NCBI RefSeq assembly: GCF_013282575.1 | Contig: NZ_JAAAYE010000019.1 | Span: forward strand, 1-64,000 | Source of the DNA: Paraburkholderia sp. NMBU_R16 | GTDB lineage: Bacteria > Pseudomonadota > Gammaproteobacteria > Burkholderiales > Burkholderiaceae | Direction: 5' to 3' | DNA: 64,000 nt | Shown here: positions 9,142 to 39,747 of the stretch, in pieces | Position numbering within the stretch: the stretch's first letter is position 1 | Layout: each line of letters opens with the position of its first letter | The notes under the pieces: model-generated | Databases searched by the model: none | The model's input: the letters and a program-made list of their open reading frames with translations, nothing else | Told to the model about the DNA's origin: nothing | Made by a program: the position numbers and the translations under genes

Positions 9142-9158
9142 AGGGGCCGCCGTGTCAA
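9130..9158 (-). promoter_or_regulatory. Sigma-70 promoter of the RHH gene
   Basis: On the minus strand TTGACA (9158-9153) is separated by exactly 17 bp from TATAAC (9135-9130), a near-consensus promoter. Transcription should begin near 9123, inside the symmetric operator. Confidence 0.75.
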
Positions 9159-9432
9159 CCCCGGAAAGGAGACGCAGGATGAAATCGGTGCTCATGATTG
9201 TCTTCATCGCTACTTTTAGCGCGGCTGCGATCGCCGCCACTTCCATGGGATCCTACTCAAGCAGCGGCAGCGATCAGCAGGACGCTTGCCGTTCCGCAAT
9301 CGCTGCGGCGGAGCAGGACAGGGTCAATTGGCTATCGAAGGGATGGACCTTCGCAGGGACCTCGAGCTGCACCTGCTCCGGAAGTGGAACAAGCTGGACT
9401 TGCTCAGTCAACGCGACGTATTTCCGCCGATA
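9154..9432 (+). repeat. Left copy of a 279-bp direct repeat flanking the sulfonate island
   Basis: This segment is nearly identical to 39470-39747 in the same orientation (about 15 differences by eye, one of them a single-base deletion in the right copy). Homology begins at GTCAACC and stops at GCCGATA in both. It contains the whole 9179-9433 gene except its final bases. Confidence 0.9.
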
Positions 9433-9433
9433 G
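9179..9433 (+). CDS. Small secreted Cys-containing protein
   Basis: An 84-residue protein with a clear signal peptide (MKSVLMIVFIATFSAAAIAA), predicted cleavage after AIA, and a mature part of about 64 residues. The mature part has four Cys (DAC, SSC, TC and WTC) and many Ser/Gly/Thr, so a disulfide-bonded periplasmic or secreted polypeptide is likely. AGGAG lies eight bases before the ATG. Function unknown. A second, frameshifted copy lies at about 39.5 kb. It is divergent from the RHH regulator gene and could be controlled through the shared 78-bp region. Confidence 0.75.
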   Translation: MKSVLMIVFIATFSAAAIAATSMGSYSSSGSDQQDACRSAIAAAEQDRVNWLSKGWTFAGTSSCTCSGSGTSWTCSVNATYFRR

Positions 9434-9537
9434 CGAGTCACACACCCGATTCGAGTTCATGGCATGGGTTCTGCTCTTCAGCCCGCCATAGGCGATCGAT
9501 TCGTCATACAGCCTCACGCCCCCGTGACGAGGCAATC

Positions 9538-9663
9538 GTGAAATATCTGTTGATTGTCGTGCTAAGCAGCCCGGTGCTGCTGGCCTATCATTTGAAGCCG
9601 GAAGAGATGCAGGAGGCGGCGCTGCAAGCGCCGCACTTCGTGCTGCATCGTCTCGCGCCTTGA
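9538..9663 (+). CDS. Possible small membrane/exported peptide (41 aa)
   Basis: A GTG-started frame of 41 codons, beginning VKYLLIVVLSSPVLLAYHLK, has a hydrophobic N-terminal helix and a short charged tail (PEEMQEAALQAPHFVLHRLAP). ACGAGG precedes the GTG at a workable distance. It could be a small membrane peptide. No homology can be claimed. The rest of 9434-9800 shows no other gene. Confidence 0.3.
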   Translation: MKYLLIVVLSSPVLLAYHLKPEEMQEAALQAPHFVLHRLAP

Positions 9664-9800
9664 TCGGCACACGCACGCCGTGAAAGCCACCGATGTTTGA
9701 CCGGATCGCCTGGACAGCGTCGTTCTCAGTATGATCTCGTGCATCACGCGATCAACACGCGCATCATCATTGACGATCCCGAACGACGCCAGGAGAGAGC

Positions 9801-11333
9801 ATGCCGAGCCGCACCCCGACAGCCATGTGGGCCCAGCAATTTCAACGGTCGTCGGGATCGAAGAAGAGCCTGCAGGATCAGATCCGTCAGATGCTCGTAG
9901 CCGCCATCCTCGATGGGCAGCTTGCGCCCGAGGTGGCATTGCCGTCGAGCCGCGAGCTGGCCGATCAGCTTGGCGTCGCACGCAACACCGTTGTACTCGC
10001 GTATCAGATGCTGGTCGAAGAAGGCTATCTGATCTCTCGCGAACGCAGCGGACATTTCGTCAACCCCGATATGCTGCACGGCTTGCCGCGTTTCGGCACG
10101 GCACCCGTGAATGCGTACGCCGCGAGCGACGACGAAGCGGTCGGTCGCCCGAACTGGCGGCAACGCATCGTTCATCCGCCGTCGAGCCAACGCAATATCG
10201 TCAAGCCTGCGAACTGGCAGCATTACGAATATCCCTTCATCTACGGGCAATTCGATCAATCGTTGTTTCCAACCAACGATTGGCGCGAATGCTGCATGAA
10301 GGCGCTGTCGATCATGGAGATTCGAAACTGGGCGCCCGATCTGATCGAACGCGACGACGAATCGCTGATCCAGCAAATTCGCACGCGCGTGCTGCCGCGG
10401 CGCGGCGTGTTCGCGGCGCCCGACGAAATCATCATTACCAATGGCTGTCAGCAGGCGTTGTATCTGATCGCCGATCTGCTCACCGGCAAAGACACGACGG
10501 TCGGCTTTGAAAATCCCGGCTATCCCGACGCGCGCAACATCTTCGAAAATCGCCACGCTCGCCTCGTCCCGCTCGGCATCGACGAGCACGGCATCGCGCC
10601 GGAAGCGCTCGACGAGTCACTCGCGCGCTGCGATTACGTCTATGTCACGCCGAGCCATCAGTGTCCGACGACAGCCACCATGCCGATCGAGCGGCGTCGA
10701 ACGCTACTGGCGATGGCGCAGCAGCATGACTTCGTGATCGTCGAAGACGACTACGAGAGCGAGAACACGTTCTCCGGCACGCCTCACCCCGCGCTGAAAA
10801 GTCTCGACACCGCCGATCGCGTGATCTATGTCGGCAGCCTTTCAAAGACGTTCGCACCGGGCCTGAGGCTGGGCTATGTCGTCGGCCCGCGGGAATTGAT
10901 ACGCGAATTGCGCGCGCTGCGGCGCCTGATGGTGAGGCATCCGGTGGGCTACGTGCAACGCGCATTCGCGACGTTTCTCGCACTGGGCCACCACGACGCG
11001 TTGTTACGGCGTCTCGCGCATGCATATCGGGAACGATCGCAGGCGCTGATGGCCGCGCTCGATGCACATCTGCCGCAACTGCGCTATGTGCCGATCACCG
11101 GCGGCGCTTCGTCGTGGGTCGAGGGACCCACATGGCTCGATGCCGAGCGCCTGGCCGCCGACGCGCAAGCCGTCGGCGTGCTCATCGAGCCAGGCAGCGT
11201 CTTCTTCATGAACGACGATACGGACGCACGTCGCCACTTCCGCATGGGCTTTTCCGCCATTGCGCTCGAACGGATCGAGCCCGGCGTCAGCGCGCTCGCG
11301 CAATGCGTGCGTGCCCAGCAACCGGCGGTTTGA
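9801..11333 (+). CDS. tauR: MocR-family (GntR/aminotransferase) regulator, probable TauR
   Basis: A 510-residue MocR-type regulator. A GntR winged helix is at about 20-88 (ALPSSRELADQLGVARNTVVLAYQML), joined to a fold-type I aminotransferase domain from about 150. In SLSKTFAPGLRLGYVVGP, Lys349 should bind PLP, and NPGYPDAR and EDDY are present. TauR of Rhodobacter capsulatus, the taurine activator of tpa and xsc, belongs to this family, and this gene borders a taurine/sulfonate island, so TauR is the best guess; PdxR or GabR relatives remain possible. GGAGAGAGC precedes the ATG. Its candidate DNA targets are the GGACCAG-N16-GGACCAG repeats at 19.6, 23.7 and 30.3 kb. Confidence 0.82.
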   Translation: MPSRTPTAMWAQQFQRSSGSKKSLQDQIRQMLVAAILDGQLAPEVALPSSRELADQLGVARNTVVLAYQMLVEEGYLISRERSGHFVNPDMLHGLPRFGTAPVNAYAASDDEAVGRPNWRQRIVHPPSSQRNIVKPANWQHYEYPFIYGQFDQSLFPTNDWRECCMKALSIMEIRNWAPDLIERDDESLIQQIRTRVLPRRGVFAAPDEIIITNGCQQALYLIADLLTGKDTTVGFENPGYPDARNIFENRHARLVPLGIDEHGIAPEALDESLARCDYVYVTPSHQCPTTATMPIERRRTLLAMAQQHDFVIVEDDYESENTFSGTPHPALKSLDTADRVIYVGSLSKTFAPGLRLGYVVGPRELIRELRALRRLMVRHPVGYVQRAFATFLALGHHDALLRRLAHAYRERSQALMAALDAHLPQLRYVPITGGASSWVEGPTWLDAERLAADAQAVGVLIEPGSVFFMNDDTDARRHFRMGFSAIALERIEPGVSALAQCVRAQQPAV

Positions 11334-11383
11334 GTTCGAGGGGGCCGTCGACACACCGCGTCGACGCCCGCGTCAATCCAACG

Positions 11384-12331
11384 TTACGACGCGCGCTGAT
11401 AGTAGATGTTCTGCGGGTGTCGTGCATCGGCGAAGAAGAACCAACGCTCGGCCACGAGCCCCGCATACTGGATCACGAACGCAGCGCCCAACGCAATGGC
11501 CGCGGCGAGCGATCGCGGCGCAAGCGCGCCCGCTCCCGTCAGCACGAACGGCACCGCGAACGCAGCGGCGATGAACACGACTTTGACGACGCGTAACGTG
11601 TCGACCGTTTGGCCGTGAAAGAACTCGCGCGTGTTGAATGCGCTCGCCGTGAAGCCGCGCGACTTTTGCTCGACCTTGCTGTTGCGGATGCCCGTTGCGC
11701 TTTGCACCGTCGACTTCGGCTTGAGCCGCGCGTTGCGCGCGAGCGACGCCAGGCGCGTGGCGCAGGCGGCGAAGGTCAGGACGCAGGCCCCGGAAGCAAG
11801 CGTGCCCACCAGCATCGGCGCCCACCAGGCCGCGCAAGCCGTGGCCAGCGTGCAGCCCGAGGCGCAGCCGAGCAGCGTAAAATTGACGAGCGTGAACGGG
11901 CTGGCCCATTCCTGCAGAAACCGCAAGCACGCATAGATCATCGCCGTGCAGACGAACAGGGCGAGGCTCGTCGTCGCGCCGCCCAGGCCGATGGCGAGCG
12001 TGCCGCCCCAACCTACCCAATGCGCGAAACCGTACGCCGACGCGAATATCAGAAACACAGGCAACGCGATGCATTCACGCGACAGCCACGACGTACGCCA
12101 CATCGCGACCGCGCGCCATGCACGCTCGGGATGCCCGAGGTGGAAGAACGATGCGAACAGCCCCAATACGCCGAGCACCACGGCGATCGCAGCGCCGACC
12201 ACGTAGAACGCCGAAGGCACGCTCGCGCCCGTGATGCGCGTGCTGGCTTCGATTGCCACGAGCGTGAGCATGAGCCCCTGCGCGGCTCCGCATAGCGTCG
12301 TGAGAAAGATGACCGAGAAAGCGGGCCTCAT
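11384..12331 (-). CDS. soeC: SoeC/DmsC-like membrane anchor of molybdoenzyme
   Basis: A 315-residue integral membrane protein of the DmsC anchor family (PF04976), with about eight hydrophobic helices. The motif FHLGHPERAWRAVAMWRTSW between helices 2 and 3 is typical of this family, including SoeC of sulfite dehydrogenases. It would anchor the A and B subunits on the cytoplasmic side and pass electrons from sulfite to quinone. It is last in soeA-soeB-soeC, 132 bp after soeB, with GGAG before the ATG. The sulfite role is inferred from the Xsc/taurine surroundings; by sequence alone DmsC is equally possible. Confidence 0.83.
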   Translation of the reverse strand: MRPAFSVIFLTTLCGAAQGLMLTLVAIEASTRITGASVPSAFYVVGAAIAVVLGVLGLFASFFHLGHPERAWRAVAMWRTSWLSRECIALPVFLIFASAYGFAHWVGWGGTLAIGLGGATTSLALFVCTAMIYACLRFLQEWASPFTLVNFTLLGCASGCTLATACAAWWAPMLVGTLASGACVLTFAACATRLASLARNARLKPKSTVQSATGIRNSKVEQKSRGFTASAFNTREFFHGQTVDTLRVVKVVFIAAAFAVPFVLTGAGALAPRSLAAAIALGAAFVIQYAGLVAERWFFFADARHPQNIYYQRAS

Positions 12332-12463
12332 AAGGTACTCCGTCGATATTGATGACTATTCGTTGATGAAGTTGCCGCCTGACGCTCCGATGACCAATCG
12401 CACGAAGGCGCGAAGGCGCGCGGCCGACATCGCAACCCTTGCTGCCGCGCGCCGATGCGCAAA

Positions 12464-13207
12464 TCAACGCTGAGCAGCCAACGCAGCCAGATCGATCTTG
12501 CCGCGTTCGAACTGCGCTTCGAGCGAAGCATCGCGCGATGCACCGTCACTCCCGCATCCACCGCTTGCGCAACCGCACGCGGATTCAGTCTTCACACGCG
12601 GCAGATAGTGGTTCGAGGGTTTCGTGTCCCATTCCGGCATCAATTGATAGCCGCCGCGTTCGCGAATTGCCTGCGACACCTCCGACTGCGGATCGTGAAT
12701 ATCGCCGAAGAGTCGCGCCGACGTGGGGCACGCCAACACGCAGGCCGGCTTGCGATCGCGCTCAGGCAGCGCCTCGTTGTCGATGCGGTCGGCGCAGAGC
12801 GTGCATTTGGTCATCTCCTTGCGCCCTTCGTCGAGTTCGCGCGCGCCATAAGGGCACGCCCACGCGCAGTACTTGCAGCCGATGCACTTGTCGTAATCGA
12901 CGAGCACGATGCCATCCGATTTGCGCTTGTAGCTCGCGCCGGTCGGACACACCGGGACGCAAGGCGGATCTTCGCAATGCAGGCACGACTTCGGAAAATG
13001 AATCGTGTCCGTCATCGGGAATACGCCCGCTTCGTAGGTCTGCACGCGGTTGAAAAACGTCCCTGACGGATCGTCGTCGTAAGGGCGCATGTCAGTGAGA
13101 CTGCCCGCCTCGCCCGACGTGTTCCACTCCTTGCAACTTGTCACGCACGCGTGACAACCCACACAGACATTGAGATCGATGACAAGGGCCATCTGAGTCA
13201 TAGTCAT
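12464..13207 (-). CDS. soeB: SoeB/DmsB-like four-cluster ferredoxin subunit
   Basis: A 247-residue electron-transfer subunit with four cysteine groups for [4Fe-4S] clusters: CVGCHACVTSC near the N terminus, CLHCEDPPCVPVCPTGA, CIGCKYCAWACPYGA, and CTLC joined with PACVLACPTSARLFGD. It has no signal peptide, consistent with the cytoplasmic Soe complex. Its ATG overlaps the soeA stop codon (ATGA), so translation is coupled. It should carry electrons from the molybdenum subunit to the membrane anchor. The C terminus has a short Cys/Gly-rich stretch (SACGCASGGCGSDG) of unknown use. Confidence 0.9.
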   Translation of the reverse strand: MTMTQMALVIDLNVCVGCHACVTSCKEWNTSGEAGSLTDMRPYDDDPSGTFFNRVQTYEAGVFPMTDTIHFPKSCLHCEDPPCVPVCPTGASYKRKSDGIVLVDYDKCIGCKYCAWACPYGARELDEGRKEMTKCTLCADRIDNEALPERDRKPACVLACPTSARLFGDIHDPQSEVSQAIRERGGYQLMPEWDTKPSNHYLPRVKTESACGCASGGCGSDGASRDASLEAQFERGKIDLAALAAQR

Positions 13208-16155
13208 TCCCCTTGTTTGAGCGTCGGGTCGGTCGGCGAGGCAGCCGTACCCGCGCGCCGCAATCGCGCGGCGAATTCGCCCTTGCCCGCGAAATACGCC
13301 TGCACGCGCTGAAAGACATTCGTCGAACCGGGCAGCGGCCGCATCGGTTCGAATTGCGGCAGCGTGGTGGCCGCATCGGCTTCGGCCCGATAGATCCGCA
13401 CCCGCACGTCGTACCAGCCCGCCTGCCCCGTGATCGGGTCGGAGTTCGACATCCGCTCGCCGGCGCGCATGTCGCCCGGCAGTTCATCGGTGATCACGTG
13501 GTTCAGCAGGAAGCCTCGCTGCGATTCGCCGGCATTGGCCGCCAGATTCCACGCGCCGGCCGCCTTGCCGATCGCGTTCCAGGTCCACACCGTGCCCGGT
13601 TCGACGGCCTCGCTGTAGCGCGCGCGGCAACGCACCTTGCCCCACGGCGATTCGACATAGATCCACCCGCCATCCTCGATCCCATCCTTGGCGGCCGTCA
13701 CCGGATTGACGAACAAATGGTTCTCGCCATGAATCTGCCGCAGCCAGGCATTCTGCGAATCCCACGAGTGATACATCGCCATCGGCCGCTGAGTGATGGC
13801 CGCGAGCGGGTAATGGTCGAGATCGGTCGCACCGTTTTCGAGCGGCGGGTACCAGAACGGCAGCGGATCGAAGTAACGTGCAATGCGCTCGCGCAGATGC
13901 TCGGGCGGTTGCCGCCCTTTCGTCTTGCCCTGCGCCGCAAGCCGGAACGTCTGCAGCGCCTCGGAATAAAGCTGGATGACGATCGGCACACCGTATTTGC
14001 GCATGCCGTTATCGACGGCCCATTGCATGTAGGGACCGTTGCAGTTGCGCATATATTGCAGTGATTCGGGCAACCGATGGTGATAGAAGCAGTTGTTCTT
14101 CGCATACTGCTCCCACTGTTTCGGATTCGGCTCCCCTGTGACAGCCTTCGTGCCGTCCTTGCCGCGCCAGCCGATCAAAAAGCCTGTGCCCGAATCGGGC
14201 GACGTTTGGAAGTTGACGACGAACTCGGGATAGTCGCGGAACTTGCGCTTACCGTCCGCCGTCGTGAACGCGGGAAACTTCAGGCGGCTCGCCAGTTCGA
14301 TCAAGACCTCCTGAAACGGCTTACATTCTCCCGTGGGCGGCACGACGGGCACCCGCACCGAATCCACTGGCCCGTCGAACTCGGAGATCGGGCGATCGAG
14401 CACCGACATCACATCGTGACGCTCGAGGTAGGTCGTGTCGGGCAAGATCAAATCGGCAAATGCGGTCATCTCCGATTCGAACGCGTCGCAAACAACGAGG
14501 AAGGGAATCTTGTACTCGCCGTCCTCGCGTTTATCGACGAGCATCTTGCGCGCCTGTCCCGGATTCATCGACGAATTCCACGCCATATTCGCCATGAAGA
14601 TCAGCAGCGTATCGATCGGATAAGGATCGCCGCGCCATGCGTTTGTGATGACCGAATGCATGAGCCCATGGACGGCGAGCGGATACTCCCACGAGAAGGC
14701 TTTATCGATGCGCGCGGGCGAGCCGTCCTCGTGCACGAACAGGTCGGCTGGCGCCGCAGGCCAGCCGAGCGGGCCTGTCGCAAGCGGCGTGTTGGGTTTG
14801 ATCGATGCCGGATCGCTCGGCGGCTTTGCCGACGGCGGTGCCGCACGGGGGTACGGCGCTTTGTGGCGAAAGCCACCGGGCCGATCGATCGTGCCGAGCA
14901 ACGACATCAAAACGGCCATCGCACGTATCGTCTGAAAGCCGTTCGAATGCGCCGCGAGTCCGCGCATCGCATGAAACGCGATCGGCGCACCTTCGACCGA
15001 CTCGTGCGTCATGCCCCATGAGTCGGTCCATTGCACGGGCATCACGATGCGCTGCTCGCGTGCGACTGTCGCCATCTCGCGGGCGATGCGCGAGATCGTC
15101 TCCGCGGCGATGCCGGTGATCGAAGCGGCCCATTGCGGCGTGCAGTGCGCCACCTGCTCGCGCAACAGCGTGAACGACGGCGCGACGGGGGTGCCGTCGT
15201 CAAGCGTATAGCGCCCGTCGAGCGCGGGCTGCGCGCCTTCCGTGTGGTGCAGCACCGCGCGGTTCGAGCGCGTGTCCCACCAGAGATGGTTCTGCGGATA
15301 GAGCGCATTGACTTCGGGTGCATCCGCGTCGCGCACGAACAGCCCGAACGTATCGCGGTCCTCGCGAAGATCGACGAGTTCGGCCGCATTCGTGAATCGC
15401 TCGACGAACGCCTCGTCGTACGCATTCTGCTCGATCAGTTCACGAATCAACGCCATGAACAATGCGCCGTCGGTACCGGGGCGAATGGCGATCCATTCGT
15501 CGGCGATCGCCGCATAACCGGTGCGCACGGGATTGATCGCGATGAAGCGCCCGCCTGCCCGTTTGAATTTCGACAAGGCGATCTTGAGCGGATTGGAGTG
15601 ATGGTCTTCAGCCGTTCCGATCATGAAGAACAACTTCGCATGATCGAGATCGGGGCCGCCGAACTCCCAAAACGACCCGCCGATCGTATAGATCATGCCG
15701 GCCGCCATATTGGCCGAGCAAAAACCCCCATGCGCCGCATAGTTCGGCGTGCCGAACTGCTTCGCGAACAGGCCCGTCAACGCCTGCATCTGATCGCGGC
15801 CCGTGAACAGCGCGAATTTCTTCGGATCGGTCGCCCGCAAATGCGCAAGCCGCTTTTCGAGCAGGTCGAACGCGACATCCCACGAGATCGGCTCGAATCG
15901 GGCCTCGCCGCGCTCGGTGCCGGCCTGGCGCAACAGCGGCCGGGTCAGTCGCGCAGGCGAATACTGCTTCATGATGCCCGACGAGCCTTTTGCGCAAATG
16001 ACGCCCTGATTCAACGGATGCTCGGGGTTGCCGTCGATGTAACGCACTTCACCATCGCGCATATGCACGCGAATGCCGCAGCGGCAGGCGCACATATAAC
16101 AGGTGGTCGTCTTGATCTCGAGTTTCTCGTTCTGCGTGCGGGCGTGATGGTCCAT
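13204..16155 (-). CDS. soeA: Molybdopterin oxidoreductase, probable sulfite dehydrogenase subunit SoeA
   Basis: A 983-residue molybdopterin-guanine-dinucleotide enzyme of the DMSO reductase family. The N terminus has the [4Fe-4S] motif Cys19-x2-Cys22-x3-Cys26 with Cys54, and a GGFCSAN segment offers a possible Cys ligand to Mo. There is no Tat signal, unlike periplasmic DmsA or TorA; cytoplasmic location is known for SoeA of Allochromatium and of sulfonate-degrading roseobacters. Its length, the following SoeB and SoeC genes, and the nearby xsc make sulfite oxidation (sulfite + H2O to sulfate + 2 e-) the most likely role, removing sulfite released by Xsc. GAGGAAG precedes the ATG. Assimilatory nitrate reductase- or DmsA-like functions are less likely alternatives. 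Confidence 0.87.
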   Translation of the reverse strand: MDHHARTQNEKLEIKTTTCYMCACRCGIRVHMRDGEVRYIDGNPEHPLNQGVICAKGSSGIMKQYSPARLTRPLLRQAGTERGEARFEPISWDVAFDLLEKRLAHLRATDPKKFALFTGRDQMQALTGLFAKQFGTPNYAAHGGFCSANMAAGMIYTIGGSFWEFGGPDLDHAKLFFMIGTAEDHHSNPLKIALSKFKRAGGRFIAINPVRTGYAAIADEWIAIRPGTDGALFMALIRELIEQNAYDEAFVERFTNAAELVDLREDRDTFGLFVRDADAPEVNALYPQNHLWWDTRSNRAVLHHTEGAQPALDGRYTLDDGTPVAPSFTLLREQVAHCTPQWAASITGIAAETISRIAREMATVAREQRIVMPVQWTDSWGMTHESVEGAPIAFHAMRGLAAHSNGFQTIRAMAVLMSLLGTIDRPGGFRHKAPYPRAAPPSAKPPSDPASIKPNTPLATGPLGWPAAPADLFVHEDGSPARIDKAFSWEYPLAVHGLMHSVITNAWRGDPYPIDTLLIFMANMAWNSSMNPGQARKMLVDKREDGEYKIPFLVVCDAFESEMTAFADLILPDTTYLERHDVMSVLDRPISEFDGPVDSVRVPVVPPTGECKPFQEVLIELASRLKFPAFTTADGKRKFRDYPEFVVNFQTSPDSGTGFLIGWRGKDGTKAVTGEPNPKQWEQYAKNNCFYHHRLPESLQYMRNCNGPYMQWAVDNGMRKYGVPIVIQLYSEALQTFRLAAQGKTKGRQPPEHLRERIARYFDPLPFWYPPLENGATDLDHYPLAAITQRPMAMYHSWDSQNAWLRQIHGENHLFVNPVTAAKDGIEDGGWIYVESPWGKVRCRARYSEAVEPGTVWTWNAIGKAAGAWNLAANAGESQRGFLLNHVITDELPGDMRAGERMSNSDPITGQAGWYDVRVRIYRAEADAATTLPQFEPMRPLPGSTNVFQRVQAYFAGKGEFAARLRRAGTAASPTDPTLKQGE

Positions 16156-16270
16156 CGTGCTTCCTCGTTCGCGGCTGGCGGCGCCCCAACCTCGACGCGC
16201 ATGCGCCGCCCGTTGAAGTCTCTATGGTATGAGGCGGCGCCGTTCCCTAAAAATCGTATTCGATGACCGA

Positions 16271-16293
16271 AACTATCGGCTGCAGCGATAGTT
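16271..16293 (-). terminator. Hairpin at the end of the permease gene
   Basis: AACTATCG and CGATAGTT form a perfect 8-bp stem around a 7-base loop, starting at the permease stop codon. A weak T-rich tail (AGTTTC) follows on the minus strand, so it may terminate the permease transcript before soeA. Confidence 0.45.
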
Positions 16294-17720: not shown

Positions 17721-17883
17721 GTCTTCTCCATATCGTATTGATTTGAACCCGGCCCATGCGAAGGCGGCGGATCGCGATGGCAGCGCGATCGATGATAGGC
17801 GCGCAGGCACACTTGTTCATGCCATGCATGCCGCCGCATGGATTGGTCTACGAGCTTGTTGGTAGTGTGATTCGTGTCGGCAC

Positions 17884-17908
17884 GCCCGGCTTTTTTCATT
17901 CGCCGGGC
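17884..17908. terminator. GC-rich hairpin between FAD oxidoreductase and permease genes
   Basis: GCCCGGC and GCCGGGC form a 7-bp stem around an 11-base loop containing a T6 run. It lies just after the flavoprotein stop codon on the minus strand. There is no U-tract after the stem, so it is only a possible terminator or 3'-end stabiliser. Confidence 0.35.
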
Positions 17909-17945
17909 GCGCGCAAGGGAGTGGGCGCGCAACCGCGCACCGGGT

Positions 17946-19361: not shown

Positions 19362-19602
19362 GCTAAGGACTCCTAGTGATTGACGGAGGCTGCGCACGCT
19401 TTTACGTGCAGCACGGCGGCATTGCCCGACTTCAGCGTTGCACGGGCGGCCAGACGGTAGGGCCTCACCGCATCGGCAGGCGCTGCGGCGTATCCGTCGG
19501 CCATGCCTTCCTCCTGATCGGTCTCTTTTGTGTTTCGCGCAAACCTGGCTGGCCCTGCGCGATCTGTGAAGAAAGTCTAGTCAGGTCAATTTCGGCTCGG
19601 TA

Positions 19603-19632: not shown

Positions 19633-19656
19633 GATGACAGTCGCCGCTGCGTCCGT

Positions 19657-20601: not shown

Positions 20602-20613
20602 CAAATACAGCGA

Positions 20614-30223: not shown

Positions 30224-30282
30224 AGCTTTCTCCTTTGAAACTGGCTCGCCGCCACGGCGGTCCACTCCCGATCCTGATCGCG

Positions 30283-30310
30283 ATCGTAGCCTCGTATCAG
30301 GGAGCGCCAA
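30283..30310 (-). promoter_or_regulatory. Predicted promoter of the cobST-like operon
   Basis: On the minus strand TTGGCG (30310-30305), a 16-bp spacer and TACGAT (30288-30283) form a plausible sigma-70 promoter 60 bp ahead of the GTG. The direct repeat at 30312-30341 begins one base upstream of the -35, the normal place for an activator. Confidence 0.5.
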
Positions 30311-30311
30311 A

Positions 30312-30341
30312 GAACCAGTAGCGACATTTCGGTTGGACCAG
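30312..30341 (-). promoter_or_regulatory. Direct repeat GAACCAG-N16-GGACCAG upstream of cobST-like operon
   Basis: GAACCAG (30312-30318) and GGACCAG (30335-30341) share the 23-bp period and orientation of the 19.6-kb site. The site-to--10 distance (29 bp) is the same at both loci. The rest of the 332-bp gap to iseJ shows no gene. Confidence 0.6.
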
Positions 30342-30555
30342 CGGTGCGGTTGCCGTGTCATCGTAGCCGGATTGCCCAGGCGACTCCATGGATAAGGGCG
30401 TTTTTGAGCCGAAATCGACACATTCCGTTTCAGTTTGGCACCCGAAACACGTCATGAGCTTGCGAAGCCCTTCGTCATCCGCGACATTGAATCCATCGAG
30501 CGGGATGCAACGCGGTTTCCCGAAATATCTTTCGGATCGCCAGGAGACGTTTTTC

Positions 30556-32193: not shown

Positions 32194-32219
32194 GCCCCGG
32201 CCCGATACGACCCGGTGCT

Positions 32220-33602
32220 TCAACGGCGCCAACGCAGCGGCCGCCGCAACGTGTGACGCTCCAATCGCACGGCCGGCATCGCATCGAGAAAGGCGAACGC
32301 CCCGCTCGCCTCCGCACTTTCGTTGCGCTCGCGCGCTTCGTCGGCTTCGACCGTGCGGTCTGTGTCGATAAACAAGGCGGCCACCAGACCCAGGGCCAAT
32401 AAGCCGGCTGACATCATGAACGGCGCGTTGTAGCTGCCCGTATGTTCGATGAGGTAACCGAAAGCAACCGGCGAGATCATGCCCGCGACGCCGAACCCCG
32501 TGTTCATCATCCCGCCCGCCGTGCCCGCATATTTGCCCGCGATATCGAGCGGCAGCGTCCACAGCACCGGGTTGGTGATTTCGAGGAAGAAGAACGATCC
32601 GCTCAGCAACCATACAGCGGTCAAAGGATCGGCCACCGAAATCATCGGCAGCAGGAACGCGAGCGAACCGCCCAGTCCGACGACGAGCACCGAGCAGCGC
32701 GCGAAGCGCAGACGCCCTGTCACCTTGTAGATGCGATCGGAGACCACGCCGCCCAACGTGTCGCCCACCACGCCGGCAAGCAACGGCAGCGCTGTGAAGA
32801 GTGCGAGATGTTTGAGGTCGAAGCCACGCGATTCCTTCAGATATGAAGGCAGCCAGGTCAGATACACCCACAACAGCCAGCCGTAACAAAAGTCGACGAA
32901 CGTGACGAGCCACATCCGGTGGATCAGCTTGCGCCAGGGCGTCCGTGCACGCTTCGCGCGCTCGCAATCGCCGGTTCGATAGCCGATCTCGGCCGTTTCC
33001 TCAGGCGTGATGCGGCGATTCTGCTCGGGGGTGTTCGTAAACACGAACAGATAAAGGACGGTCCATGCGAGGCTCGCGACGCCGAGCAGGATAAACGCGT
33101 CACGCCAGCCACCGGCCACCACCACGGCGAGCACGAGCGGGGGCGTGACCGCGCCGCCCAGGCGTGCAAAGCTATGCGTGATGCCTTGCGCGAAGCCGCG
33201 TTCGCCGACGGGCATCCAATACGTGAATGCGCGCGTCGCGGTGGGGAATGCGCCGCCTTCGCCAATCCCAAGCACGAAGCGCAGCGCGACGAGCATGGCC
33301 ACGCTGCCGGCGAAACCGGTAGCGAGCGTCGCGGCGCCCCAGATCAACGAGAGCACCGTCAGCACGATTTTCGGTCCGAATTTATCCGACAGGCAGCCGC
33401 CGATGATCTGCATCGCTGCATAAGGATAAGCGAACGCAGAGAACACGAGGCCGAGCTGCACGGTTGTCAGCCCCATCTCATGGCGAATCAGCGGCCCTGC
33501 GACTGCAATGTTGACGCGATCGATGTACGAGATGAAATACATGAGGCACATGACCGCCAGGATGATATGGCGCGTCTTCACGCGCTGCGCACGCTGTTTC
33601 AT
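32220..33602 (-). CDS. sauU: MFS transporter, probable sulfoacetate importer SauU
   Basis: A 460-residue MFS transporter (ACS family) with about 12 helices. It opens HIILAVMCLMYFISYIDRVNIAVAGPLI, has GGCLSDKFGPK in the loop between helices 2 and 3, and FVLGIGEGGAFPTATRAFTYWMP as in tartrate/hexuronate-type carriers. The order sauS-sauT-sauU matches the sulfoacetate operon of Cupriavidus necator H16, where SauU is the presumed sulfoacetate transporter. AGGAG precedes the ATG. IseU-type isethionate transporters are close alternatives because iseJ is convergent with it. Confidence 0.86.
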   Translation of the reverse strand: MKQRAQRVKTRHIILAVMCLMYFISYIDRVNIAVAGPLIRHEMGLTTVQLGLVFSAFAYPYAAMQIIGGCLSDKFGPKIVLTVLSLIWGAATLATGFAGSVAMLVALRFVLGIGEGGAFPTATRAFTYWMPVGERGFAQGITHSFARLGGAVTPPLVLAVVVAGGWRDAFILLGVASLAWTVLYLFVFTNTPEQNRRITPEETAEIGYRTGDCERAKRARTPWRKLIHRMWLVTFVDFCYGWLLWVYLTWLPSYLKESRGFDLKHLALFTALPLLAGVVGDTLGGVVSDRIYKVTGRLRFARCSVLVVGLGGSLAFLLPMISVADPLTAVWLLSGSFFFLEITNPVLWTLPLDIAGKYAGTAGGMMNTGFGVAGMISPVAFGYLIEHTGSYNAPFMMSAGLLALGLVAALFIDTDRTVEADEARERNESAEASGAFAFLDAMPAVRLERHTLRRPLRWRR

Positions 33603-33680
33603 ACGGTTGTCTCCTACTGTCTCTTGTTCGAGATTTCGATGTCTGAAGCGAATCGCACTGCGGGCTCAGAGCCCCCTTTG

Positions 33681-35297
33681 CTAATCGGGCGCCGGCGCGA
33701 GCAACTTCAGGCGCTGCACCTTGCCCGACGGGCCGCGCGGCAAATCGCTGACGAACCGGATCTCCTTGGGCGTCTTGTAGCGGCCCAACTCGCGCAGACA
33801 ATGCGTGCGCAATTCATGCGCATCGGGCGCTCCGTGCCAATGCGTCTCGCGCGGCACCACGAACGCCACGATCTCTTGCCCATACATCGAATCGGGCACG
33901 CCGACAGCCGCGGCATCGAGCACGCCGGGATGGCGCAACAGCGCCTCGTCGATCTCACGGGGCGCGATGTTCTCGCCGCCTTTGATGATCAGTTCCTTCG
34001 CGCGGCCGTTGATAAAGAAGTAGCCGTCCTCGTCCCGATAGCCGAGGTCGCCCGTGCGCAACCAGCCGTCGGCCGTAAAGGCTTTCGCGGTTTCTTCGGG
34101 GCGCTTGTAGTACCCCTGCATCACCTGCTCGCCGCGCAACACGATCTCGCCCGACTCGTTCGGGCCGCACTCGCGCCCCTCACGATCGATCACCTTCGCC
34201 TGCACTCCCGAGGGTAGCCCGATGCTGCCGATGCGCCGCAGCGCCGGATCGTAACGATTGCTGAATATCGGCGCGGCCGTCTCCGTCATCCCCATCGTCT
34301 CGATGATGCCGATGCCGAAACGCGCCTCGAACGCGCGATGATGGTCGCCCGGCAACGCAGCCGATGCGGTGCGGCAAAAGCGAAGCGCGGACAGATCGAA
34401 TCCGGTCGGCTCGTCGCCGCCCAGCAGGTAGGCGACGATCGTCGGCACGACGTTGATCCAGGTGCAACCGAAACGCGCCACGTCGCGCCAGAACGTGCGC
34501 GCAGAAAACCGCGGCGTCATCACGACTGACCCGCCGTGATAGAGCGGCGCGAGCAGCGTCACGACGAGGCCGTTGATGTGATAAAGCGGCAACGATGCGA
34601 GCACGCGATCGTCGGCACCGAGCCGATGCTCGACGCTGATATTGCGCGCATTCGCCAGCAGGTTGCGATGGCTGAGCAAGACCCCTTTCGGGGCGCCCGT
34701 CGTTCCCGACGTATACATCAGCAATGCGAGGTCGTCCGGCCACAGGGTGTGCCCGGCCGTGCAATCGTCGTTCGCCGCGGCGGGCTCCGCTCCCCCTGAT
34801 TGCGCGAGCGCGAGTTCGAGCTGCGGCAGCGCAGGCAGATCGATCGCTTCTGGCGCCGTATGCACGAGCGCGATGTTACGCGGGTGCGCCTGCTCGCCGA
34901 GCGCCGCGCATGCAGCCGAGACCGCATCATGCGTCTCATCGCAGACAAAAATCATGCGCGTGTCCGAATGCTCGACGATATAGCGAAGTTGCGACGGTTG
35001 GCACAGCAGGTTCAACGGATGAACGACGAGCCCGCTGTACATGGCGCCGAGCAGCAGCGTGGCCGTCTGCACCCCGTTGCCCATGAACACCGAGACAATA
35101 TCGCCGGGCTTCAGCCCCGCCCGCCGGAATCGCGCTTCGAGTTTGCGGCACTTCTCCTGCAACATTGCAAATGTGATCGCCGCACCGGCTTCGGTCTGTT
35201 CCTCGTCGTGCGCCGGCGCTGCCAACAGAAACAGTTTGTCGGGATACTGCGTGGCGCGCGCATCGATCAATGCGCGCAGCGTCGTAGGCGTGTTCAT
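33681..35297 (-). CDS. sauT: Sulfoacetate-CoA ligase SauT (acyl-CoA synthetase family)
   Basis: A 538-residue adenylate-forming ligase. TSGTTGAPKG is at 196-205, GMTETAAP follows, GWLRTGDLGYRDEDGYFFINGRAKELI is the A7-A8 region and PSGKVQRL holds the C-terminal catalytic Lys. In the known pathway SauT makes sulfoacetyl-CoA from sulfoacetate, CoA and ATP with release of AMP. The ATG at 35297 overlaps the sauS stop (ATGA), which fixes the start; a longer open frame to 35891 runs antisense-free through sauS in another frame and is not real. SauS immediately upstream reduces the product, supporting this role over a general fatty acid ligase. Confidence 0.88.
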   Translation of the reverse strand: MNTPTTLRALIDARATQYPDKLFLLAAPAHDEEQTEAGAAITFAMLQEKCRKLEARFRRAGLKPGDIVSVFMGNGVQTATLLLGAMYSGLVVHPLNLLCQPSQLRYIVEHSDTRMIFVCDETHDAVSAACAALGEQAHPRNIALVHTAPEAIDLPALPQLELALAQSGGAEPAAANDDCTAGHTLWPDDLALLMYTSGTTGAPKGVLLSHRNLLANARNISVEHRLGADDRVLASLPLYHINGLVVTLLAPLYHGGSVVMTPRFSARTFWRDVARFGCTWINVVPTIVAYLLGGDEPTGFDLSALRFCRTASAALPGDHHRAFEARFGIGIIETMGMTETAAPIFSNRYDPALRRIGSIGLPSGVQAKVIDREGRECGPNESGEIVLRGEQVMQGYYKRPEETAKAFTADGWLRTGDLGYRDEDGYFFINGRAKELIIKGGENIAPREIDEALLRHPGVLDAAAVGVPDSMYGQEIVAFVVPRETHWHGAPDAHELRTHCLRELGRYKTPKEIRFVSDLPRGPSGKVQRLKLLAPAPD

Positions 35298-36739
35298 CGG
35301 CCGACCCTCGCGAAGTAGTCGCCGAGCAGCGTGTCCGGATCGGGCATGCGCTCTTCGATCGGATAAGCGACGCGCGTTACATTGAGGTAGTAATGGAAAT
35401 CGAGGTTGCCCGAAAAATTGTTGCGTCCCCAAGTACCGCAGCCCATCGACAACGAGAACGGCAGGCCGTTGTCGAAGTTGCCGCCCGTTGCAAGGCAGTG
35501 CGCCTGGTTGACGATGACGCGCGCCACGGGCAACCGTTCGCCCAACTCCACGGCGAAATCGGCGTTTGCCGTATGCAATCCGACCGAATGGCCGGCGCCC
35601 ATATAGGCATAGATGTGTTGCACGATGCGCGCGGCATCGGCGAAATCGCTCGCGCGATAGACAGCCAGCACAGGTGAGAGCTTTTCGCCGGAGAACGGGT
35701 GTTCCGGCCCGAAGCCGTCCTCTTCCACCATCAGGAATTTCGGTTCGCGCGCGGCCAGTTCGTCGAGTCCCGCCAGCTGCGCGATCTGCTGTGCCGATTT
35801 CGCGGTGCAGCGCTCGGAGAGCTTTCCGTCGCGCCACATCGCCGCCTGCAGGCGTGCCTTCTGCCCCGCGTCGAGCAATACGCCTTTGCATCGCCGCAAC
35901 TGTTCGAGCATCGCGTCATACACTGCGTCGTCGATCACGATGCTGTTTTCCGACGAGCAGCTCGTCGCGTTGTCAAACGTTTTCGATCGCGCGATCTTGC
36001 GCGCGGCCTCGGCCAAGTCCGCAGACCGTTCGACGATCGAGGCCACATTGCCCGCGCCGACGCCGAAAGCAGGCGTGCCGCTCGTATAGGCCATGCGCAC
36101 GTTCGCCTGCGAGCCCGTCGCGACGACAAGATCGGCCGCCCGCATCAACTCGGCGCTCGCGAGCTTGCTGACAGGCTCGGGCAGCATCTGCACGAGAGCC
36201 GGATCGATGCCGGCCCGTTCAAACTGCTGATGAATGAACCCGATCAGCAACGCGCACGATGAGTAACCCTTGGGCGACGGCGCCACGATCACGGCATTGC
36301 CGCATTTGAGCGCATTGATGATCTTGTTAGCGGGCGTGGCGGCAGGGTTCGTCGAAGGCGTGATCGCCGCGACAACGCCTACGGCCCGTGCGATCTCGAC
36401 GATGCCGCGCTCGGGATCGCGCGAAATGACGCCGCAGGTGCGTTGCCCGTGCAGATCGCGCAGCAAGCCCAGCGTCTTGCGGTAGTTCTTCCCAATCTTG
36501 TCTCCGATATTGCCGAGCCCGGTGTCTTGCACCGCACGTTCGGCGAGCTGGCGATTGCGATCGGGCTCCATGATGGCCCAGGCGGCCGCGGCCGCCGCAG
36601 TATCGAGCGTCGATTGCCCCGCGACCTCGAATGCGCGCTGCGCCTCGCGTGCGCGAGCAACGAGCGCGGCGACGCGCTCCTTCACAGCTTCGTCTGCCGG
36701 CGCGGCTACGATTTCGGCGACTGTCGCCCTCACGTTCAT
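35294..36739 (-). CDS. sauS: Sulfoacetaldehyde dehydrogenase (acylating) SauS
   Basis: A 481-residue CoA-acylating aldehyde dehydrogenase. NATSCSSENSIVIDD contains catalytic Cys261. ITPSTNPAATPANKIINALKCGNAVI and the VATGSQANVR / GVGAGNVAS segments are typical of acylating enzymes such as the acetaldehyde dehydrogenase domain of AdhE. In the SauS reaction, sulfoacetyl-CoA is reduced with NADPH to sulfoacetaldehyde for Xsc. GGAG precedes the ATG at 36739. First gene of sauSTU, divergent from sauR, with the C. necator arrangement. An 11-bp-armed palindrome in the shared promoter region is the likely SauR operator. Confidence 0.92.
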   Translation of the reverse strand: MNVRATVAEIVAAPADEAVKERVAALVARAREAQRAFEVAGQSTLDTAAAAAAWAIMEPDRNRQLAERAVQDTGLGNIGDKIGKNYRKTLGLLRDLHGQRTCGVISRDPERGIVEIARAVGVVAAITPSTNPAATPANKIINALKCGNAVIVAPSPKGYSSCALLIGFIHQQFERAGIDPALVQMLPEPVSKLASAELMRAADLVVATGSQANVRMAYTSGTPAFGVGAGNVASIVERSADLAEAARKIARSKTFDNATSCSSENSIVIDDAVYDAMLEQLRRCKGVLLDAGQKARLQAAMWRDGKLSERCTAKSAQQIAQLAGLDELAAREPKFLMVEEDGFGPEHPFSGEKLSPVLAVYRASDFADAARIVQHIYAYMGAGHSVGLHTANADFAVELGERLPVARVIVNQAHCLATGGNFDNGLPFSLSMGCGTWGRNNFSGNLDFHYYLNVTRVAYPIEERMPDPDTLLGDYFARVGR

Positions 36740-36762
36740 AGATGCACTCCGTTGCGAAAAGA

Positions 36763-36780
36763 ATTGGCGGTACAGCCAAT
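36763..36780. promoter_or_regulatory. Small inverted repeat in sauS leader
   Basis: ATTGGC and GCCAAT, perfect 6-bp arms with a six-base spacer, lie about 24 bp upstream of the sauS start codon. It may be part of the leader or a second operator. Confidence 0.3.
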
Positions 36781-36859
36781 CTAGGCGAGCGCTTCTCGAG
36801 CCGGGTCCCGTTTCCCGCACATTTCCCGACAGCGTTGGCAGGTTCAACGAAAAGTGCGC

Positions 36860-36887
36860 ATTTCGGGACTTACCCGAGTCCCGAAAT
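36860..36887. promoter_or_regulatory. Palindromic operator between sauS and sauR
   Basis: ATTTCGGGACT (36860-36870) and AGTCCCGAAAT (36877-36887) form a perfect 11-bp inverted repeat around TACCCG. It lies midway between the divergent sauS and sauR genes, as expected for an IclR-type operator. Similar half sites occur upstream of the MHS transporter (39171-39179, ATTTCGGGA; 39264-39272, TTCCGAAAT). Confidence 0.75.
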
Positions 36888-36944
36888 CCGCCCGAATCGA
36901 TACACAATGAGGACTACAGCGGGTGGTAGAACCGGGGAGAGGCG

Positions 36945-37709
36945 ATGTCGGCGTCGAATCAGTCGAATGCGGCGGCAGTCCGAGCGTTTCGCGTGCTGGA
37001 AACGTTGGCGGCGGCTGGCCGCCCGCTATCGATGATGGAGCTCGCGAGCACGCTCGATTTACCGAAGCAGACGATGCACCGCATCCTCGTGCAGTTGAGC
37101 GACGCGTGGCTGATTACGCGCGGCGCCGGCGACAAGCGCTACGAATGTTCGCCGCGCGTGCGGATGCTGGCCGTCAACGTGCTCATGCATGCGGGCCCCG
37201 CTGCGGCGCGTCATGTCTTGCTCGAACAGCTCGTCGAAAAAATCGGCGAGACCTGTAATCTGACCATGCTGTCGGGCAACGACGTCATCTATCTCGATCG
37301 CGTCGAAACGGAATGGCCGCTGCGCGTGCATTTGCAGCCAGGGTCGCATGTTCCGCTGCACTGCTCGGCCAGCGGCAAGCTTCTGATCAGCTTTTTGCCG
37401 AAAGATCGACGCGACCGCGTGATCGAAACGCTGCCGCTGCGTCCCTATTCCGAGCGCACCATCACGAACCGCGAGACGCTACGCAAGGAACTCGCGATCA
37501 CGCGTCGCCGTCGATTGGCCATCAACAATCAGGAACACCTGCAAGGGCTGATCGCGATCGCGGTGCCGGTCATGCTGGACCGCAATCGCGCCTGCGCGGC
37601 GATTGCGGTCCAGGCGCCCGTGGGACGATTGACGCTCGAAGACCTGCTGCGATTCGAGCCGGACCTGCGGCACGCGGCCGAAGAGACGGCTAAAACGTTT
37701 AGTGCGTGA
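36945..37709 (+). CDS. sauR: IclR-family regulator SauR
   Basis: A 254-residue IclR regulator. The winged helix is at about 8-65 (AFRVLETLAAAGRPLSMMEL, LDLPKQTMHRILVQL). The effector domain has GETCNLTMLSGNDVIYLDRV and PLHCSASGKLLISFLP. It is divergent from sauSTU exactly as sauR is in Cupriavidus necator, so it should control sulfoacetate use. GGGGAGAGGCG precedes the ATG. It resembles the other IclR protein of the island (19786) in layout but differs in the recognition helix. The perfect palindrome at 36860-36887 is its probable binding site. Confidence 0.9.
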   Translation: MSASNQSNAAAVRAFRVLETLAAAGRPLSMMELASTLDLPKQTMHRILVQLSDAWLITRGAGDKRYECSPRVRMLAVNVLMHAGPAAARHVLLEQLVEKIGETCNLTMLSGNDVIYLDRVETEWPLRVHLQPGSHVPLHCSASGKLLISFLPKDRRDRVIETLPLRPYSERTITNRETLRKELAITRRRRLAINNQEHLQGLIAIAVPVMLDRNRACAAIAVQAPVGRLTLEDLLRFEPDLRHAAEETAKTFSA

Positions 37710-37788
37710 AGTACGGATGCGCGGCAACCGCAGCATCGCTCGTTATGGCGGGCCGAGGTGTCGTCTTCTGCTTCCCATCACAGCGCGC

Positions 37789-39123
37789 TCAGGGTGCACT
37801 GACGGCGGGCCGTTCGCGAGGCGATACGCGTTGCCGCCCGCGCGCACGGTCCATCGCCCGCGCCGACCATGCGGAGACCAGTGCGGAAAACAGCACGTAG
37901 GCGCAGACGGTCCACCATTTGCCGCCACTCGTCTTCCATAGGGCGGTGGCGATGATCGGCGTGAGACCGCTCGCGAAAATTCCCGAGAATTGATAGACGA
38001 AAGAGATGCCTGTATAGCGGACACTCGCATCGAACAGATCCGCAAATAGCGCCGCCTCGGGGCCATATACCATCGCGTAGAAGATGCCGAACGGGATTAC
38101 GATCGCGAGCCAGATCAGCAGCGTATTGCCCGGGTGGCTTTCGATCAGCCAGAACGCCGGATAGACCGATATGCCGCACAGCAATGAGCCCCACTTGAAG
38201 ACACGTGCACGCCCGGCGCGGTCGGCGAGACTGCCGAACAACGGAATGAAGAAGCACATGACGAACGCGGCCATCATCACGCCGAGCAGCGCGTCCGTGC
38301 GATCCATCTTGATGTGTTGCGTCAGGTAACCGATCGAAAAGACAGCAAAGACATTGAAGAAGACGCCGTCGATATAGCGCGCTCCCATCCCGAGCAACAG
38401 TTCACGTCGATAATTGGCGAACATTTCGACGAACGGCAGCCGCACTGCGCAACGGCCGCGCTTGAGCGCGGCGAATTCGGGCGTTTCCATCACGTTCAGA
38501 CGAATGTAGAGCCCGATCAAGACGAGCACGAGCGAAGCGCCGAACGCGACGCGCCAGCCCCACGCGAAAAACGCCTGCTCCGAGAGCAGATGCGACACGG
38601 CCGCCACCATCCCCGACGCGAGACACAGGCCGATCGACAGCCCGACCTGCGGCAGGCTGGCGTACAGTCCGCGCCGATGCGGCGGCGCATACTCGTACGC
38701 CATCAGCACCGCGCCACCCCATTCGCCGCCGAGGCCGATGCCCTGGAGCACGCGCAACGACAACAGCAGGATCGGCGCCCAAATCCCGATCTGCGCGTAC
38801 GTCGGCACGAAGGCGACGCCCACGGTCGAGACGCCCATGATGAATAGCGACAGAATCAGTGCTGATTTACGGCCGATGCGATCGCCGAAGTGACCGAACA
38901 CAACCCCGCCGACAGGACGCGTCACGAACCCGACGGCGAACGTCGAATAAGCGAGCATGATTGAAACGAGCGGGTCGTTCGCCGGAAAGTAGAGCTTATT
39001 GAAGACAATGCCGGCCACTACGCCATACAGGAAGAAGTCGTACCATTCGACCGTCGCGCCAACGACACTGGCCAATGCGACGCGGCGAACCATGCGTGAA
39101 TCGATGTTTGGCTGGGATGACAT
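37789..39123 (-). CDS. MHS-family (MFS) transporter
   Basis: A 444-residue metabolite:proton symporter of the MHS family (KgtP/ProP/ShiA type) with about 12 helices. VVGATVEWYDFFLYGVVAGIVF, GGVVFGHFGDRIGRKSAL and GEWGGAVLMAYEYAPPHRRG are family motifs. It converges with sauR and reads toward it, so it has its own promoter; SauR-like half sites lie upstream. It may import a carboxylate or sulfonate such as isethionate or sulfoacetate; the substrate cannot be decided from sequence. The ATG at 39123 has GGAGGAGAG upstream. Confidence 0.88.
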   Translation of the reverse strand: MSSQPNIDSRMVRRVALASVVGATVEWYDFFLYGVVAGIVFNKLYFPANDPLVSIMLAYSTFAVGFVTRPVGGVVFGHFGDRIGRKSALILSLFIMGVSTVGVAFVPTYAQIGIWAPILLLSLRVLQGIGLGGEWGGAVLMAYEYAPPHRRGLYASLPQVGLSIGLCLASGMVAAVSHLLSEQAFFAWGWRVAFGASLVLVLIGLYIRLNVMETPEFAALKRGRCAVRLPFVEMFANYRRELLLGMGARYIDGVFFNVFAVFSIGYLTQHIKMDRTDALLGVMMAAFVMCFFIPLFGSLADRAGRARVFKWGSLLCGISVYPAFWLIESHPGNTLLIWLAIVIPFGIFYAMVYGPEAALFADLFDASVRYTGISFVYQFSGIFASGLTPIIATALWKTSGGKWWTVCAYVLFSALVSAWSARAMDRARGRQRVSPRERPAVSAP

Positions 39124-39469
39124 GAAACGGCTCTCCTCCAGTGAATACCCGTGCGCGCTTGCGATCGGGGATTTCGGGAGCCCCTGGCGTCTCCTCCGGG
39201 GCATATCGTGCCGTGCCGGGTTCCTCGGATCCGCCAGGACAGGGCACTTGTTTCTATTTACTGTTCCGAAATCGGTGCTTCAAGCGAATTTGGACGGCGA
39301 AAACCGTTCTGGGACAAAACGAAGAATTTCGTTTCAATTCCCCGCTGAAAAACGACGCCATCCGATCGAGCGTGCGGTGTCTGCGCCGACGCGCAACGCC
39401 CTTGAAACGATGGATCCGAAGCGCCTCCTCCAGCGTCGGGTGGCCGCCGATCTGCTTGGCGAGCAGCAG
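39124..39469. other. Non-coding gap at the right edge of the sulfonate island
   Basis: This 346-bp stretch holds the MHS transporter promoter region with the ATTTCGGGA and TTCCGAAAT half sites. A short open frame (about 27 codons, MDPKRLLQRR...) ends at the repeat. No gene is supported. Confidence 0.4.
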
Positions 39470-39747
39470 GTCAACCACGGAAAGGAGACTTAGGATGAAA
39501 TCGGTGGTGGGGATTGCCTTCATCGCACTTTTAGCGCGGCTGCGATCGCCGCCACGTCCATGGGATCCTACTCAAGCAACGGCAGCGATCAGCGGGACGC
39601 TTGCCGTTCCGCAATCGCTGCGGCGGAGCGGGACAGGGTCAATTGGCTATCGAAGGGATGGACCTTCGCAGGGACCTCGAGCTGCACCTTCTCCGGAAGT
39701 GGAACAAGCTGGACCTGCTCAGTCAACGCGACGTATTTCCGCCGATA
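39470..39747 (+). repeat. Right copy of the 279-bp direct repeat
   Basis: This is the partner of 9154-9432 in the same orientation. It is one base shorter: a T present at about 9213 in the left copy is missing near 39528. The two copies enclose all sulfonate genes. Confidence 0.9.

Follow-up and report, generated by a model that had tools for sequence, protein, structure and literature searches.

Gene sets for the use of taurine and other organosulfonates (tauR, tauABC, xsc, pta, soeABC) are known from bacteria such as Ruegeria pomeroyi DSS-3, and an excerpt of the reannotation of that genome names a taurine regulator, tauABC, pta and soeABC (PMC4334477). The stretch of DNA analysed here (the window, 64,000 nucleotides) comes from the draft genome of a Trinickia species (G000; 6.28 Mb in 562 contigs) and holds a similar parts list, as far as that excerpt goes; unlike the R. 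pomeroyi set, its genes share a single 30-kb block with additional transporters, IclR regulators and a CobS/CobT-like pair. With direct-repeat-flanked genomic islands the block shares an apparently foreign origin, repeats at both junctions, relics of mobile elements nearby and a patchy presence; unlike them, it has no identified integrase acting at the repeats and no tRNA gene on its contig, an entire small gene is repeated in place of a short att site, and relatives keep the block as a conserved gene neighbourhood. Like a composite transposon, it has long direct repeats on either side of passenger genes, but here no transposase is recognisable in the repeat, of which the genome has no further copies.

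We consider it likely that the block was acquired from a donor resembling Trinickia soli (G002) into a new, mosaic accessory neighbourhood, with the repeats involved. The kind of event is already known and no new mechanism is needed; what is new is this instance, with unusually clean donor and breakpoints, so that in one natural case it can be told from which lineage a transferred 30-kb catabolic block came, which genome received it and where both breakpoints lie. Among the literature matches listed, no paper on the block in Trinickia was found by title or start of abstract. The case suggests that sulfonate genes pass between Trinickia species as a single module, which is relevant to the spread of taurine use in Burkholderiaceae.

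The repeat pair and the genes between its copies

The two repeat copies (279 and 278 bp, both on the + strand) are 94.6% identical, their alignment holding 14 mismatches and one 1-base gap, in agreement with the sequence-only reading, which had counted about 15 differences in a 279-bp same-orientation repeat. It had also taken the segment for a small secreted-protein gene, which holds for the intact left copy (84 aa), but the right copy is a frameshifted relic. The features are as follows.

9154..9432, + strand, left repeat copy, small secreted-protein gene, intact (coding sequence 9179-9433, 84 aa, ATG at 9179, ribosome-binding site inside the repeat)
9433..9457, no strand, left junction between repeat and block, 25 bp
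9458..39350, no strand, block very probably transferred, continuously collinear with T. soli G002:C6:147373-177318 in a single 30-kb alignment at 89.8% identity
9801..11333, + strand, MocR/PdxR-type regulator (family search), putatively TauR-like from its position
11384..12331, - strand, DmsC-type membrane anchor, putatively SoeC-like
12464..13207, - strand, 4Fe-4S subunit, putatively SoeB-like
13204..16155, - strand, molybdopterin oxidoreductase, putatively SoeA-like
16293..17810, - strand, amino-acid permease of the GABA permease group
17946..19397, - strand, FAD-dependent (DAO) oxidoreductase
19786..20601, + strand, IclR-family regulator
20698..23453, - strand, taurine/aliphatic-sulfonate-type ABC transporter, below curated cut-offs (ATPase 20698-21435, binding protein 21468-22487, permease 22512-23453)
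23603..24283, + strand, SnoaL-like protein
24456..26273, + strand, xsc, sulfoacetaldehyde acetyltransferase, exceeding both curated cut-offs
26426..27466, + strand, pta, phosphate acetyltransferase, exceeding the TIGR00651 and PRK09653 cut-offs
27483..30421, - strand, CobT-like and CobS-like pair, below equivalog cut-offs
32220..33602, - strand, MFS transporter
33681..35891, - strand, AMP-binding acyl-CoA ligase-like protein
36945..37709, + strand, IclR-family regulator
37789..39204, - strand, MFS metabolite:H+ symporter-like protein
39351..39469, no strand, right junction between block and repeat, 119 bp, outside the T. soli match
39470..39747, + strand, right repeat copy, relic of the same small gene (1-base deletion, 14 substitutions, early frameshift, cysteine codon lost)

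Both enzymes that define an Xsc-type C2-sulfonate degradation cluster, sulfoacetaldehyde acetyltransferase and phosphate acetyltransferase, are encoded in the block, while the soe and tau names follow family and neighbourhood only. Judged from gene families, the pathway would probably lead from taurine via sulfoacetaldehyde to acetyl phosphate and sulfite, and so serve the use of taurine or related C2 sulfonates. No transposase or integrase is found among the in-block genes identified. The earlier statement that all sulfonate genes lie between the copies was borne out, none being recognised outside them in the subset of window ORFs given to family searches.

The start of the left-copy product, signal-peptide-like by eye, fits a small secreted protein; family searches with the 84-aa sequence returned neither a family match nor a recognisable transposase. 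Significant similarity between the copies covers the ribosome-binding site and the gene and extends no further, and in the 6.28-Mb genome the two copies are the only matches to the repeat (right copy E 7.9e-122). Of the 11 coding substitutions between them, 2, 6 and 3 are at codon positions 1, 2 and 3, a spread to be expected for a copy not under selection. Since the copies have diverged by 5%, less than the 10% that separate the block from T. soli, the pair need not be older than the insertion. The longest identical run is 59 bp, within a 221-bp part, and block loss by homologous recombination between the copies is possible in principle.

The repeat was sought in the DNA of 60 relatives and the proteins of the 10 Trinickia relatives forming the close comparison set (all of them other species than the source), and more widely in 398 family genomes and 399 order genomes (G000 counted in both), plasmids, phages and viral contigs. 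Neither copy was found in any of the 10 at DNA or protein level, including the two without xsc, so that the sulfonate-free relative with a single copy, which the sequence-only reading had envisaged, did not appear among them. In the family search seven genomes besides G000 gave a match at E <= 0.01, the sole credible one being a 37%-identical protein in G092; five of the other six matches lie in stretches that carry stops or resemble chance, and the sixth (L174) was set aside on its 36% identity and one stop, judged from the family search alone. None of 81 xsc-neighbour loci gave a match longer than 200 bp outside the block.

Collinearity and ancestry of the block

Cut into 1-kb bins, the block is 86-95% identical to T. 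soli throughout, and no T. soli match is seen in the neighbouring bins shown (8001 and 40001-42000). This similarity stops short of the left copy by 25 bp and of the right one by 119 bp, and the repeats therefore mark the junctions, giving the block the defined boundaries and flanking repeats of a genomic island. A minus-strand reading frame at the right junction (39341-39478) had no match in the plasmid collection. The organosulfonate block occurs in eight of the ten relatives in largely the same gene order, and partly in other genera; the seven xsc-bearing relatives besides T. soli keep the order at mostly 75-85% identity per piece, with gaps in some, and no Xsc match at E <= 1e-150 was obtained in G009, the closest relative by core genes, or in G007. 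None of the eight has a direct repeat at the block ends comparable to the 279/278-bp pair, and no relative examined carries the block with the flanks of G000, so that at this site it is absent from close relatives. The earlier label of an island is thus apt for a foreign segment but finds no support in the sense of a mobile or locally assembled unit, given the conserved neighbourhood in the eight relatives, their lack of comparable end repeats and the lack of a transposase or integrase among the identified in-block genes. When the window flanks were used to search the ten relatives, all other species, for an empty site, matches were scattered over separate contigs, the two flanks were never seen side by side, and the site itself did not turn up. 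Likewise, 7.5 kb of the right-hand neighbourhood in T. soli revealed no vacated ancestral site in G000, finding the block end and weak matches only (67-71%, one of 84% over ~40 bp).

The full background for ancestry consisted of two core loci (~30 kb); a third control region, C22, proved accessory and was therefore left out. T. soli is 91.0% identical to G000 at the rpo locus (12.3-12.5 kb; ten relatives 90.2-91.1%) and 85.9% at the nuo locus (17.4-19.4 kb; ten relatives 85.5-87.1%), and BLAST identities at these loci gave the same picture. Over the block (24.6-27.8 kb), T. soli reaches 90.8% and the other seven relatives 80.6-82.2%. Random stretches of G000 and T. soli showed little overlap: the sampling yielded 18 further matches of at least 400 bp, some probably paralogous, 17 of them 69-84% identical and one, 1.2 kb long, 95% identical. 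The latter, presumably an EF-Tu copy, is the single one above 91% among all 19 matches of at least 400 bp.

The core tree unites G000 with G009 (SH-aLRT 97) and G002 with G005 and G008 (100), whereas the block tree unites G000 with G002 (100), nested with G005 and G008 (100), and this nesting gives the direction from donor to G000. In AU tests, which used quick trees and groups picked once the core and block trees were known, G000+G002 was rejected for the core (delta lnL 818, p 3e-76); rejected for the block were G002+G005+G008 without G000 (p 0.009), G000+G006 (p 9e-76) and the core group G001+G003+G010 (p 6e-5). Block and core trees conflict further over G004+G010 and G003+G006, and G000 is therefore not the only genome affected by block exchange, or by rate effects. 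Measured against the two core loci, the ancestry of the block differs from that of the core genome, as is expected of an island; vertical descent is rejected by the trees, which indicate a donor from the T. soli lineage.

Routes by which the block may have entered

We regard horizontal transfer of the block as one piece as very probable, and the earlier suggestion of an insertion survives in this form, as an entry apparently in one piece with its ends at the repeats, according to the T. soli alignment, the trees and the AU tests. The analysis shows that the block is collinear, that its identity to T. soli is uniformly in excess, that the trees disagree, that G009 lacks xsc and that both synteny breaks coincide with the repeats; that the repeats took part in the insertion we infer. 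Because no single-copy genome, empty site or repeat-bearing donor was found among the ten relatives, the evidence that the repeat had a part in the insertion is circumstantial. The source species would have gained the conserved Burkholderiaceae organosulfonate block from a T. soli-like donor, apparently in one event, in which a circular or circularised donor segment with the block and one repeat copy may have entered a resident copy by single-crossover (Campbell-type) homologous recombination, leaving a direct repeat at either end. The redundant right copy would then have degenerated as a pseudogene, with the left one kept intact. Given transfer, this Campbell route is our first choice, held tentatively and at somewhat less than an even chance.

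The small genes might instead be a pre-existing diverged pair, between which illegitimate recombination placed the donor block, without the repeats as drivers. Similarity limited to ribosome-binding site and gene, as for a gene duplicate, copies already 5% apart and differing sequences next to them all suit such a pair, but a separate earlier duplication would be required, none of the ten relatives has one or two copies, and the 25- and 119-bp spacers show no resemblance by eye, which is not what a simple tandem unit plus spacer would give; we consider it unlikely, if still to be reckoned with. It is more doubtful that the insertion itself duplicated 279 bp of target, by break repair or replicative duplication, with identical copies diverging later: the copies do diverge less than the block does from T. 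soli and the right one is decaying, but no transposase is among the identified block genes, and target duplications of ~279 bp are not usual for known transposases, a length that counts against this origin.

Least probable of all is vertical inheritance with rearrangement of the flanks alone, which the collinearity of the block in eight of ten relatives, with gaps in some, would favour, but which the block identity to T. soli, the AU tests and the absence of xsc from G009, nearest by core genes, contradict. Hardly better placed is an assembly artefact in which a contaminant segment resembling T. soli was joined at the repeat. Misjoins typically occur at repeats and the assembly is a 562-contig draft, but with 15 differences between the copies each junction has a version of its own, contamination of G000 is estimated at 0.35%, and only one of the 19 matches (1.2 kb) exceeds 91%. 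It is a long shot, less remote than either of these, that the rare small secreted-protein gene acts as a portable homology cassette, copies of which on the donor segment and in the recipient would allow homologous recombination to carry an ordinary 30-kb catabolic block from one species to another with neither transposase nor integrase.

Right flank and other repeats in the window

The right flank is a mosaic and holds several plasmid or IS remnants, including the following.

41415..42146, + strand, tyrosine recombinase relic outside the block, with an in-frame stop, of a family common on plasmids
42901..43416, + strand, IS21-family end and istA remnant, outside the block

The recombinase relic had been placed just outside the right copy; the relic is real, but at about 41.48-42.11 kb it lies 1.7 kb beyond that copy and does not immediately adjoin it. 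A role for it found no backing, its family being common on plasmids and the patchwork flank also holding the IS21 remnant. No tRNA gene is present on the contig and no transfer genes were seen among the ORFs examined; the intact integrase or transfer genes and tRNA site of an integrase-driven island or ICE are thus missing, as are the flanking insertion sequences with transposase of a composite transposon. Besides the 279/278-bp pair, the window repeat listing, at the settings used, contained no direct repeats other than a tandem array of 23 bp at 42902 and a single 31-nt pair, which by its appearance is due to chance.

Gene content and conservation of the sulfonate block

The window belongs to contig C19 (101,930 bp) of a draft assembly (6.28 Mb, 562 contigs), and its genome is a member of the genus Trinickia. 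The following features are referred to:

9154-9432 (+), left copy of the repeat
9458-39350, 30-kb organosulfonate gene block, collinear with T. soli GP25-8
39470-39747 (+), right copy of the repeat
~41.48-42.11 kb, tyrosine recombinase relic with an in-frame stop

Gene families assigned to the block include MocR-type and IclR regulators, a permease, a taurine-type ABC transporter, MFS transporters, an FAD oxidoreductase, a CobS/CobT-like pair and an acyl-CoA ligase, while xsc and pta score above curated cut-offs. The three-subunit molybdopterin enzyme is read as SoeABC-like, and family searches gave no match for the ORF region at ~30.4-32.4 kb. Taken with the neighbourhood, these families suggest a taurine/organosulfonate pathway; the R. 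pomeroyi reannotation names a taurine regulator, tauABC, pta and soeABC (PMC4334477). A reading frame of ~41 codons (9538-9663) lies just within the left end of the block, with a similar one in T. soli.

The gene xsc was found in eight of the 10 Trinickia relatives (E <= 1e-150), all with the same block gene order, and so the sequence-only notion of the “island” as a local unit is not supported. The match is incomplete in places, with a gap at ~16.3-17.9 kb in relatives G003 and G004 and an end at ~37.7 kb in G004 and G006 (T. symbiotica JPY-345). The CobS/CobT-like pair (27483-30421), which follows xsc-pta, is matched in order in 8/8 xsc-bearing relatives. A further 81 xsc loci, drawn from many genera, all showed partial similarity to the block; they include overlapping loci and four from the genomes of T. 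soli, Trinickia sp. Y13, T. symbiotica and G008, a MAG filed as Paraburkholderia. Outside 9400-39500, none of them matches the window over >200 bp.

Probable origin of the block by transfer

T. soli aligns to the block in a single 30-kb stretch at 89.8% identity (86-95% in each 1-kb bin), and at 24.6-27.8 kb it is 90.8% identical, against 80.6-82.2% for the other seven relatives. At the core loci, the 10 relatives are 90.2-91.1% (rpo) and 85.5-87.1% (nuo) identical to the window’s genome, with T. soli near the top (91.0%) and mid-range (85.9%), respectively. In the core tree this genome pairs with G009, which is without xsc, and T. soli groups with Y13 and the MAG, whereas in the block tree this genome pairs with T. 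soli, adjoining Y13 and the MAG. Alternative groupings were rejected by AU tests, which used quick trees and groups picked with the tree results already in view. Because G007 and G009 lack the block, the core test was run on the other nine of the 11 genomes. The tree conflict and AU tests, together with the excess T. soli identity, thus point to the T. soli lineage as donor and this genome as recipient, which supports the proposed insertion as to the block’s origin. The block-tree pairings G003 with G006 and G004 with G010 also disagree with the core tree, and hence the block may have been repeatedly exchanged within Trinickia.

The repeat copies and the ends of the block

The two 279-bp copies are present as described (279/278 bp aligned, 94.6% identity, 14 mismatches and one gap) and are the sole two matches genome-wide. 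Their similarity spans approximately a ribosome-binding site and coding sequence, which is an open gene of 84 aa in the left copy and is frameshifted, with a cysteine codon lost, in the right. The 11 coding substitutions fall 2/6/3 on codon positions 1/2/3, a pattern suggesting that one or both copies are not under purifying selection. Searches of Pfam, NCBIfam and PHROGs returned no match to the 84-aa protein.

T. soli similarity starts 25 bp past the left copy and stops 119 bp short of the right, placing the block’s breakpoints at the repeats. Three routes would yield direct repeats at both ends: a circular donor segment would integrate at a resident copy, the block would be inserted between a pre-existing pair, or the repeat would be duplicated upon insertion. 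Given transfer, we tentatively prefer circular-segment integration, at somewhat short of an even chance. No direct repeat comparable to the 279-bp pair was seen at the block ends of the eight xsc-bearing relatives, the only ones there being 28 bp (T. soli) and 76 bp at 76% identity (G010), and the search of the 10 relatives turned up neither a single-copy nor an empty-site genome that would distinguish the three routes. Of the proposed repeat-bracketed insertion, the foreign origin of the block is supported, and the repeats are candidates for a role in it. Deletion of the block by recombination between the copies would be possible given identical runs of up to 59 bp (in a 221-bp part), and is less favoured by their 5% divergence.

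Flanking sequence

Outside the copies, comparison with the fetched block surroundings of the eight relatives (pieces >150 bp) gave no match beyond two weak ones (65% and 70%), both in G004. On the left, a 2.5-kb piece matches non-block contigs in eight relatives, in G010 on a replicon other than the block’s. The right flank is a patchwork. It holds the recombinase relic, whose type is often found on plasmids and whose first suggested role in insertion is not supported; an IS21 remnant, which matches part of a Burkholderia savannae plasmid at 93.8% identity; and segments that align at 83-95% identity with sequence elsewhere, on other contigs or at other positions, in T. soli, Y13, T. symbiotica, the MAG and G009. 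Directly after the IS21 remnant, the C-terminal part of a PEP-utilising enzyme (43387-44490) looks like a truncated extra copy, given a related stretch, 79% identical, on contig C22 of the same genome. An oxidoreductase/methyltransferase segment (48321-51292) is 94.7% identical to Y13 contig C10, above the core-locus background of ~86-91%, and is thus a probable further transfer.

At the IS21-family end are 23-bp tandem repeats (42902-43016), and contigs C53, C70 and C128 of this genome carry similar sequence at their ends or close to them, where it probably causes assembly breaks. An RHH_8-family regulator (8663-9118) adjoins the left copy, and ATCC/GGAT-rich inverted motifs seen by eye upstream of it (9095-9140) are possibly its operator.
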